Source: Christensenellaceae bacterium
GTDB taxonomy: Bacteria > Bacillota > Clostridia > Christensenellales > Aristaeellaceae
NCBI GenBank assembly: GCA_022510815.1
Contig: JAFLST010000001.1
Location: forward strand, 111,035 to 175,034
DNA length: 64,000 bases
Direction of reading: 5' to 3'
Shown: positions 4,306-57,357 of the stretch, one piece after another
Numbering within the stretch: position 1 is the first letter of the stretch
Layout: the number at the start of each line of letters is the position of its first letter
Notes under the pieces: model-generated
What the model was told of the DNA's origin: nothing
Database searches by the model: none
The model's input: only the letters and a program-made list of their open reading frames with translations
Translations under genes and position numbers: made by a program

Positions 4306-5592
4306 TCACAGACGCAGCGTCTCGGCGCCGCGGCCCACAATCGCGATGCATGGTGCTTCGGTCAGGACACGGCGGGCGCAGTCCATCACCTTGTTCATGG
4401 TCACCGCTTCGATCTTCTCGATGGTCTCCTGCGGCTCGCTGGGCCGACCCAGCAGCAGCGTCATCCGCCCCATGGCTTGCATGCGGCTTCCGGGGCTTTC
4501 AAGGCCCATCAGATAGCCGCACCGGAGCTGCTGCTTGGCGTCGCGGTATTCCTTCTCGAGAATGCCGTCCTTCAGCAGCTTGTCCAGTTCCCGGCGGACT
4601 TCCTCCATCACCCGCTCGGCGTTCTTCGGGGATACGCCCGCATACACGGCGAAGGTGCCGCACCCCTGATAGGTGTTCGGATAAGTGTAGATGGAGTACG
4701 CCATGCCCAAATCCTCGCGGATCCGCTGGAACAGCCTCGACGACATCGCTCCGCCCAGCAGGTTGTTCAGCGCCGCCTGCGGATAGATGTCCTCGCTGCC
4801 GTAGCTCGCTCCGGGAAAACCCAGACAGATGTGCATCTGCTCAGTGTCCTTCTCCCGAAGGCAGTGCTGTCCCGTCAGCGGCCTTTCCTGCGGCACGATA
4901 AGCTGCCCGATCTCCGCCTTCCAGCCGCCGAACACCTGCTCCAGCAGCGCCTTGACGCGCTCCGGGTCGTAATTGCCCGCCAGAGCAATGACGGTCCGTT
5001 CCGGCGAATAGTGCTTGGCCCGGTAATCAACCAGATTCTGCCGCGTATACCCGGAGATCAGCTCCGCCGGGCCGAGAATCGGCATGCCGAGGCTCTGATC
5101 ACCGAACATAGCCTTGCTCAGCAGATCATGCACAAGGTCTTCCGGTGAGTCTTCGTCCATGGCGATCTCTTCCAGAATGACTCCGCGCTCTTTCTCCAGT
5201 TCAGTCTCATCCAGCGTGGCGTTCGTCACCAGATCCGCGAGAATATCCGCGGCCAGCGCCACGTCCTCGTCGATAACCTTGGCGTAGAAGCAGGTGCAGT
5301 CCTTGCCCGTAAAGGCGTTGAGCTGCCCGCCAACCGCGTCCATCTCCTCGGCAATCTGCCGTGCCGTGCGCTTGCCGGTGCCCTTGAACACCATGTGCTC
5401 CATAAAATGGCTCAATCCGTTCTCCTCGGGCAGTTCAAACATCGACCCGACGTGCAGCCACACGCCCATCGACACCGTCCGCAGATACGGCAGCCGCTCA
5501 CCGACCACCCGCAGGCCATTGCTCAAGGTCCATTCGTCGTGCATAGATCCATCCATCCCTATGATGTTTTCCACTATGCTTCCCATGTTCAT
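4306..5592 (-). CDS. M16 family zinc peptidase (MlpA/YmxG-like)
   Basis: HxxEH motif (GLSHFMEHMVFKGT) and M16 context; downstream of pnp, resembling rpsO-pnpA-ylxY-mlpA order in Bacillus. Confidence 0.9.
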   Translation of the reverse strand: MNMGSIVENIIGMDGSMHDEWTLSNGLRVVGERLPYLRTVSMGVWLHVGSMFELPEENGLSHFMEHMVFKGTGKRTARQIAEEMDAVGGQLNAFTGKDCTCFYAKVIDEDVALAADILADLVTNATLDETELEKERGVILEEIAMDEDSPEDLVHDLLSKAMFGDQSLGMPILGPAELISGYTRQNLVDYRAKHYSPERTVIALAGNYDPERVKALLEQVFGGWKAEIGQLIVPQERPLTGQHCLREKDTEQMHICLGFPGASYGSEDIYPQAALNNLLGGAMSSRLFQRIREDLGMAYSIYTYPNTYQGCGTFAVYAGVSPKNAERVMEEVRRELDKLLKDGILEKEYRDAKQQLRCGYLMGLESPGSRMQAMGRMTLLLGRPSEPQETIEKIEAVTMNKVMDCARRVLTEAPCIAIVGRGAETLRL

Positions 5593-5602
5593 CCTTTCTT
5601 AT

Positions 5603-5865
5603 GTCATGGGCTTCGCTCCCGATACCCCTGACAGGAGCCTTGCCCCTGTACCTCACGAAGGGCTATCGCCCTCTCGGCTCCCTTCACGCGATGCAGTCGC
5701 CAGCCTTCGGCCAGACAATATGCGCGTGAATATGCTCACGGAATCAAGCATGACCGAAGGCACTCGACTTGATCGTGAGATGGGTGCAGAGAGGGCGACA
5801 GCCCTTCGCTGAATGCAAGGAAAAGCCCTTGCCGAGGGGCGTCGGGGAGCAGCGCTCCCCGACAC
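5603..5865. repeat. ~260-nt near-symmetric inverted repeat made of two convergent copies of a multi-hairpin module
   Basis: Left arm ...cacgaagggctatcgccctctcgg...ccttcgg...gcgcgtgaatat and right arm (reverse complement) ...gcgaagggctgtcgccctctctg...ccttcgg...gagcatattcacgcgc align about a centre near 5733. Confidence 0.75.
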
Positions 5866-5870
5866 TCGCG

Positions 5871-8027
5871 TCAATTCCGGCCGTCGCGGCGCGGGGGACG
5901 GCTGCGGAATCCACCCTCAGCAGGCTTGCGAGGCGCGGTATTCTCGTAAACAATGTCGTTGCGGATGAGGTTCACGCGGCCCTGCGCGTCGATTTCGCTG
6001 ACCTTGACTTCCAGCTCGTCGCCGATCTTGACCACGTCCTCAACCTTCTCCACGCGGTGGTTAGCCAGCTTGGAGATGTGAATCATGCCGTCCTTGCCAG
6101 GCAGCAGCTCGACGAACGCGCCGAAGTTCATGATGCGCACGACCTTGCCGCTGTAAACCTCGCCGACCTCAATGTCCTTGGCGATGCCCTCAATGATCTT
6201 GCGGGCCTTCGCGGCGGCATCGGCGTCGGGCGTGGAAATGAACACACGACCGTCGTCCTCGATATCAATCTTGACGCCGGTTTCGGCAATGATCTTGTTG
6301 ATCATCTTGCCGCCGGGTCCGATAACCTCGCGAATCTTCTCGGGGTTGATGGTAAAGCGGACGATCTTGGGCGCCCACTTGGAGAGCTCCTCGCGCGGCT
6401 GGCCGAGGCACTCGAGCATGATGCCCAGAATGTGCAGACGGCCCTGCAGAGCCTGCGCCAGCGCCTGCTTCAGGATGTCGCGGTCGATGCCCGCGATCTT
6501 AATATCCATCTGGATGGCGGTGATGCCGTTCATGGAGCCAGCGACCTTGAAGTCCATGTCGCCGAGGAAGTCCTCGAGGCCCTGAATGTCGGTCAGCACG
6601 CAGACCTTGCCGGTCTCGGCGTCCTTGATCAGGCCCATAGCCACGCCCGCAACAGGCGCGTGAATCGGCACGCCAGCGTCCATCAGGGACAGGGTCGAGC
6701 CGCAGACGGAAGCCATCGAAGAGGAGCCGTTAGAGGAGAGAATCTCGCTGACCAGACGCAGCGCATAGGGGAATTCTTCCTCAGAGGGCACCACGGGCTC
6801 GAGGGCACGCTCAGCCAGCGCGCCGTGACCGATCTCGCGGCGACCGGGGCTCTTCATGCGGCCAGCCTCGCCAGTCGCATAGGGCGGCATGTTGTAATGA
6901 TGGATATAGCGCTTGAAGTCCTCATTGGACAGGCCATCGAGGATCTGACCCTCGCTGGTGGAGCCCAGCGTGGTGACAGTCAGGGCCTGCGTCTGGCCGC
7001 GGGTGAACACGGCAGAACCATGGGTGCGCGGCAGAACGCCGACCTCACACCAGATCGGGCGGACCTCGGTGACCTTTCGGCCGTCGGGACGGACACCCTG
7101 CTCGAGAATCTTCTTGCGCATGATTTCCTTGTTCAGGTAGTACAGCGCGTCGCCGATTTCGCTCTCGCGGCCCTCAAACTGCGCGCCCAGCGCCTCGAGG
7201 GTCTCCTGCTTGACCTGCGCCTCACGGCTCTGACGCTCCTCGCGATCGAAGGTGTCGAACACCCAGACGCACTTGTCATAAGCGAATTCGCGGACAGCCG
7301 CCTTCACGTCGTCGCCGGTCACGACCAGCGGCACTTCGAGCTTCTGCTTGCCGATCTCGGCGATGATCTGGTCCTCGAAGGCGATGATCTTCTTGATCTC
7401 CTCGTGCGCGAACATGATCGCGTCGAGCATGACCTCCTCGGAGACTTCCTTCGCGCCAGCCTCGACCATCAGCACCGCGTCGCGGGTGCCGGAGACGGTC
7501 AGATGCAGGTCGGAAGCCTGACGCTGCTCCTCATTGGGCAGCAGCACGAACTCGCCGTTCACGCGGCCCACAACCACGGAACCGGTGGGGCCGTTCCACG
7601 GAATCTCGCTGACGGACAACGCGATGGAGGAGCCGATCATGGCCGGGATTTCCGGCGGGATGTCCTTATCCACGGACAGGATGGTCGCAACCACCTGCAC
7701 GTCGTTGCGCATGCCCTTGGGGAAGAGCGGGCGCAGGGGCCGGTCGATCAGGCGGCAGGTCAGGGTCGCCTTCTCGGTGGGACGGCCTTCACGCTTGATG
7801 AAGCCGCCGGGAATCTTGCCCACGGAATACTGCTTCTCCTCCACGTCAACCGCCAGAGGGAAGAAGTCCACGCCGGGACGGGGCGTCGGGGCCATGGTGG
7901 CATTGACCATGACGACGGTGTCGCCAAGGTGCACCCAGACACTGCCAGCAGCCTGCTCGCAGTACTTGCCGAATTCGAGCGTCAGCGGAAGACCCGCCAG
8001 CTCCATTGAATACTTCTTGGATTCCAT
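5871..8027 (-). CDS. pnp: polyribonucleotide nucleotidyltransferase (PNPase)
   Basis: 718 aa with two RNase PH domains, KH ([20 protein letters not shown]) and S1 ([33 protein letters not shown]). Confidence 0.98.
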
Positions 8028-57222: not shown

Positions 57223-57357
57223 TGCCAGAGGGTTCCGCCCTCTGGACTCCTGACAGGGGCTCCGCCCCTGTACCCCGCGAAGGGCTTTCAGCCCTCTCGA
57301 CACCCTTCTCGCAAATCAGTTATATTCCTTCGGTCTTACGTCATGCGCGTGCTTATT
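57223..57357. repeat. second genomic copy (single arm) of the multi-hairpin intergenic repeat at 5603-5865
   Basis: ccagagggttccgccctctgg, acaggggctccgcccctgt, gaagggctttcagccctctc, then ccttcggtc...catgcgcgtgcttat matching 5628-5734 with a 1-nt indel and substitutions. Confidence 0.8.

Follow-up and report, generated by a model that had tools for sequence, protein, structure and literature searches.

The question raised by this locus is what kind of element fills almost the whole of an intergenic gap with one near-symmetric sequence, and whether the symmetry calls for a special explanation. In the window (the whole 64,000-nucleotide stretch that was analyzed), the open reading frame list places pnp, encoding PNPase (5871-8027, minus strand), upstream of an M16 peptidase gene (4306-5592, minus strand) whose orthologues in the genus are 68-73% identical. 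The gap between the two genes is 278 nt long, and an inverted repeat occupies 5603-5866. An inverted-repeat search of the window found nothing longer than its arms at 5656-5713 and 5751-5808, which pair over 58 nt without gaps at 79% complementarity. When the arms are aligned with gaps allowed, the score is 59; 2000 dinucleotide shuffles average 16.5 and never exceed 31, and the near symmetry that a first, sequence-only reading had reported between pnp and the M16 gene is therefore well founded. The fold proposed for the minus-strand RNA was borne out over 5590-5875, with -161.4 kcal/mol against a shuffled mean of -110.6 (z -8.9), and in a sliding 270-nt fold scan no other part of the window is as stable as this repeat. 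The palindromic center is also present, at 5726-5740 (CGTGA-ATATGC-TCACG). The further claim that elements match on both arms holds with one qualification: the outermost hairpins, at 5608-5622 and 5841-5863, are only loosely alike. An Rfam scan of the window gave nothing above the gathering score at the repeat, the sole match in the window being a tRNA.

The symmetric sequence is a pair drawn from a genus-level repeat family, which is unnamed and is an ordinary kind of genome repeat. Its description as two convergent copies of the same module was right in kind, and both units match a covariance model (CM) of the family. Unit A (5603-5728, plus strand) has its hairpin end towards the start of the M16 gene and consists of the hairpins H3, H2, and H1, followed by a tail ending in CGCGTG. 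The CM match covers 5629-5728 (96.1 bits, E 1.7e-20), with the third hairpin (5608-5622) just beyond the edge of the model. H2 (GACAGGAGCCTTGCCCCTGT, 5630-5649) corresponds to consensus helix 1 and H1 (CGAAGGGCTATCGCCCTCTCG, 5656-5676), which has the one-base bulge of the family, to consensus helix 2; the tail motif CCTTCGG, conserved in the family, lies at 5704-5710, all on the plus strand. Unit B (5735-5866, minus strand) is inverted, with its hairpin end towards the pnp stop codon and a CM match at 5735-5834 (85.8 bits, E 4.3e-18). Sequence and alignment place its CCTTCGG motif at 5754-5760 (CCGAAGG on the plus strand), H1 at 5789-5808, and H2 at 5814-5833, again on the minus strand, while the inverted-repeat search identified H3 (5841-5863) as a perfect 10-bp stem adjoining the pnp stop codon. 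The palindromic center is the meeting point of the two tail ends, where that of unit B (CGTGAG) joins unit A.

The family unit, defined by aligning the two window arms with two further monomer copies, is ~100-140 nt long and is made up of two or three short GC hairpins and a ~50-nt tail ending in CGCGTG. The consensus order is at least one GC hairpin (e.g., ACAGGGGC..GCCCCTGT), then the hairpin GCGAAGGGCTTTCAGCCCTYTCG with a conserved one-base bulge, and then the tail ACCC..TCGCGAT..CCTTCGG..CGCGTG. At the BLASTN level, the own genome yielded only two further partial copies, both monomers, at window positions 57246-57351 and upstream of valS. A covariance model was needed and was built from eight units. 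With it, at least 29 copies were found in the own genome at E<0.1 and at least 11-149 in each of 12 congeners, counts that are lower bounds because 150 of ~390 candidates were scored per genome; the genomes compared are draft MAGs. The sequence-only reading had held that a lack of copies elsewhere would refute it, and this condition decidedly does not apply. The third copy in the window (57251-57351, plus strand; CM 102.3 bits) is a monomer immediately preceded by an additional hairpin; its 143-nt gap has a gene start on one side and a stop codon on the other. In other families of the order, six of eight genomes had no CM match at E<=0.1, and weak matches numbered 2 and 19 in the two others; of 80 genomes from within the taxonomic family, 61 lacked any match at E<=1e-4. 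All matches in other genera stayed below 47 bits, and the part they have in common seems to be mainly the hairpins. Literature searches turned up no relevant named repeat family for Christensenellales or Faecalibacterium. To the known repeats, the present work adds an unnamed family of hairpin repeats from uncultured Clostridia of herbivore guts.

The repeat varies in presence at fixed loci. The pnp–M16 gap was readable in 15 congeners. In five of them it has no insert, measures 87-128 nt, and contains an intrinsic terminator (GCAAAAGTCC..GGGCTTTTGC, then Ts; in G004, a shorter-tailed hairpin). The other 10 have gaps of 246-679 nt with a repeat-like insert directly after the pnp stop codon. 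For six of these 10, the gap contains a CM match with E<=2e-6 (L166, L167, L168, L170, L171, and L172), and the insert of G007 (L179) has a CM match too; the remaining three were recognized by eye or from weak matches. Many insert-bearing congeners still keep the old terminator. It has been lost from the window's own gap, where no terminator pattern was found and no U-run follows the hairpins. Because the intrinsic terminator present in most congeners is absent from 5593-5870, pnp and the M16 gene may be co-transcribed.

A second fixed locus is valS. In four congeners, the stop codon of a homologous upstream gene is followed by 12 nt and then the ATG, while in the own genome ~130 nt of repeat lies between that same stop codon and the SD; a copy is also found at this site in G002 and G007. 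No target-site duplication is obvious at the empty and filled valS sites, whose flanks have diverged. Empty and filled versions at pnp–M16 and valS mean that the repeat is gained and lost, as are REP/BIME, BOX, or MITE elements, and these natural pairs allow a direct comparison of the effect of the repeat on operon expression. Immediately ahead of valS, several congeners (L226, L227, L229, L230, L231, and L236) also share a conserved mini-ORF (MNC.A.R...AVA.M) that has a ribosome-binding site of its own and is possibly a leader peptide.

Nearly all own-genome copies are intergenic, as judged with a simple gene caller and by eye; the home-made caller gave overlapping, probably spurious calls at L060 and L063 and partial overlaps at L068 and L069. 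The hairpin end lies against the stop codon of the preceding gene in 11 copies and against the start or ribosome-binding site of a gene reading away in about 12. Several gaps with a single copy are ~145 nt long, the tail end lying 1-6 nt from the stop codon of the other gene. We think it probable that the pnp–M16 sequence is a BIME-like head-to-head pair of small mobile repeats that are non-autonomous and intergenic and belong to a family at the genus level. Units would insert into intergenic gaps, close up to a stop codon or ribosome-binding site, presumably moved by an enzyme acting in trans. Two copies would have landed independently, tail to tail, in a gap where most sister species keep an intrinsic terminator that is absent here.

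The sequence-only reading had named a REP/BIME-like or MITE-like element as a possibility. That suggestion holds for a multicopy intergenic family of variable presence but not for the strict definitions, i.e., GTAG-tagged REPs with a RAYT and MITEs with terminal inverted repeats (TIRs). REP and BIME elements are GTAG- and CGTC-tagged palindromes (PMC3733652, PMC2817692). The family resembles them in being intergenic, multicopy, and palindromic, often beside stop codons, with palindromes kept by complementary changes (PMC3733652, PMC2817692), and like REPs it offers short imperfect palindromes in many extragenic copies. In REPs, dimers joined head to head have been documented to fold either separately or into a single large stem-loop, and the alternating orientation within clusters that marks BIMEs is seen in the window pair, the C14 pair, L172, and L213. 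However, the family unit has 2-4 hairpins and several times the length; among 20 aligned copies, neither a GTAG nor a CGTC tag is conserved, the consensus ending in CGCGTG on one side and in a variable G/C stem on the hairpin side; and the own genome lacks a RAYT, nor is there a cognate RAYT flanked by copies. A 2013 survey does not have Firmicutes among the phyla listed with GTAG repeats (PMC3733652).

Streptococcal BOX elements have been proposed to be non-autonomous mobile elements affecting co-transcribed genes (PMC3049150). The likeness to them is one of layout only, both being small, modular stem-loop repeats that lie between genes in Firmicutes and contain internal modules in varying number (PMC3049150), but the family monomer lacks terminal inverted repeats of the BOX kind. 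MITE-type elements (ERIC, Correia, and QMITE) are similar in size, intergenic placement, copy number, and variable presence (PMC10969869), and empty and filled orthologous sites are found as for MITEs. In contrast to MITEs, the ends of the monomer are unlike and have no terminal inverted repeats, inverted ends arise only in the dimer, and no related IS was seen. The family is outside the GTAG/CGTC REP superfamilies because tag and RAYT are both missing, and it is not a TIR MITE because the monomer ends differ. It appears to work like REP/BIME and BOX elements, and we would class it as a new family, as yet without a name, of a kind already known.

The enzymes known to move REPs are RAYTs. A search for a mobilizing enzyme found none: the own genome has no Y1_Tnp or REP_Tyr_transpos match, the RAYT-like loci of congeners have no family copies alongside, and their Y1 loci have none except for one weak match (L021, E 0.0019). 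Because RAYTs can be lost, this absence is compatible with a past role. It seems unlikely that a novel non-RAYT mechanism moves the family to stop codon or ribosome-binding-site junctions, swapping native terminators for multi-hairpin spacers across the genus. Three RAYT-like genes in congeners carry a different, GTAG-tagged repeat beginning GTAGGGGCGA. RAYT-like genes below the family cut-off at L218, L219, and L220 (G017, G007, and G006; ~1500-1850) have GTAG-tagged repeats of the type GTAGGGGCGACCnnnGGTCGCCC, some of which lie inside the matched RAYT-like reading frame.

The structure of the family is conserved through paired changes. Across 64 distinct copies, in an alignment (A3) that was fitted to the model structure, 93% of model-pair cells hold and 25 of the 27 pairs have changed on both sides, with compensatory changes in all eight pairs of consensus helix 1 (H2) and seven of nine in consensus helix 2 (H1). 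An independent MAFFT alignment of 20 own-genome copies has 7 of 14 pairs covarying, and two paired changes separate the orthologous hairpins of two congeners (CTCAAGGGC..GCCCTTGAG in G009 vs CCAAAGGGC..GCCCTTTGG in G013). Such changes are no proof of selection, because template switching during replication can itself produce them (PMC8794818), and they may reflect template-switch mutation instead.

This bears on an unlikely alternative, in which the repeat is a terminator or mRNA stabilizer that is kept by selection and spread by gene conversion or recombination, not by transposition. Its position directly after stop codons, its place here in lieu of the ancestral terminator, and the in-situ compensatory changes of the G009 and G013 hairpin would all fit. 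However, the hairpins have no following U-run, both orientations occur and about half of the copies are reversed with their hairpins at a start codon, congeners with an insert often retain the old terminator, and template switching can explain the paired changes.

As for the RNA, repeats of this kind are known to act by attenuation, RNase III or RNase E cleavage, and 3'-end protection (PMC3049150, PMC10969869), and 3'-end protection or processing is the effect we judge likeliest between pnp and the M16 gene. RNA made from the pnp side would fold either into a single long hairpin with interruptions, for which 98 pairs are predicted, or into several local hairpins in a row, and the mobile-repeat pair, if active at all, would most likely act as an mRNA 3' end and operon spacer. 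The predictions are that 3' exonucleases would be slowed behind pnp, that the hairpin could be cleaved by double-strand RNases, and that M16 expression would be uncoupled; a putative RNase III site in the gap, as the sequence-only reading suggested, is possible. A locus-specific element for processing or autoregulation of pnp, such as an RNase III site controlling the PNPase level, would go further, and the adjoining gene, the long duplex potential on the transcribed strand, and the gap without a terminator would suit it. It is nevertheless very unlikely: the repeat lies 3' of pnp, outside its leader; many unrelated genes have the same repeat beside them; and in five congeners it is missing from pnp–M16. 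An insertion that alters processing as a side effect is possible.

The symmetry itself is best understood from the relationships among copies. The window arms are 68% identical to each other and each is 75% identical to another own-genome copy, and a recent inverted duplication was rejected on this ground. Head-to-head joins of other copies made at random average -120 kcal/mol vs -108 for the window pair, with 102 of 153 at least as stable, so a specially tuned long hairpin was rejected as well. The long symmetry and hairpin arise because any two homologous copies joined head to head give them, and the striking 260-nt symmetry thus needs no special explanation. Nor did the ~260-nt symmetric whole survive as the unit, since most own-genome copies are single ~100-140 nt monomers and only two head-to-head pairs (the window and C14:30556-30791) occur among ~29 copies. 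A single ~264-bp long-palindrome MITE that has long terminal inverted repeats and entered the pnp–M16 gap once could draw on the complementary window arms and on the further pairs at C14, in G014 at pnp–M16 (L172), and in G012 (L213), but that reading, highly improbable now, is largely refuted by the arm relationships and the monomers, which fill whole ~145-nt gaps as self-contained units, and 102 of 153 random joins fold equally well or better.

Longer forms of the repeat are found in two congeners. In G007 and G012 (L198-L217), it runs beyond CGCGTG into longer, species-specific shared modules, for example, GTTGCGCGTCGCACG in G007 and GTGAACAAGTTCACGGAGTCCTCGCGTCGCC in G012. At L208 of G007, near-identical copies at 1240-1346 and 1396-1502 lie in direct tandem with the same spacer, which suggests a recent tandem duplication.
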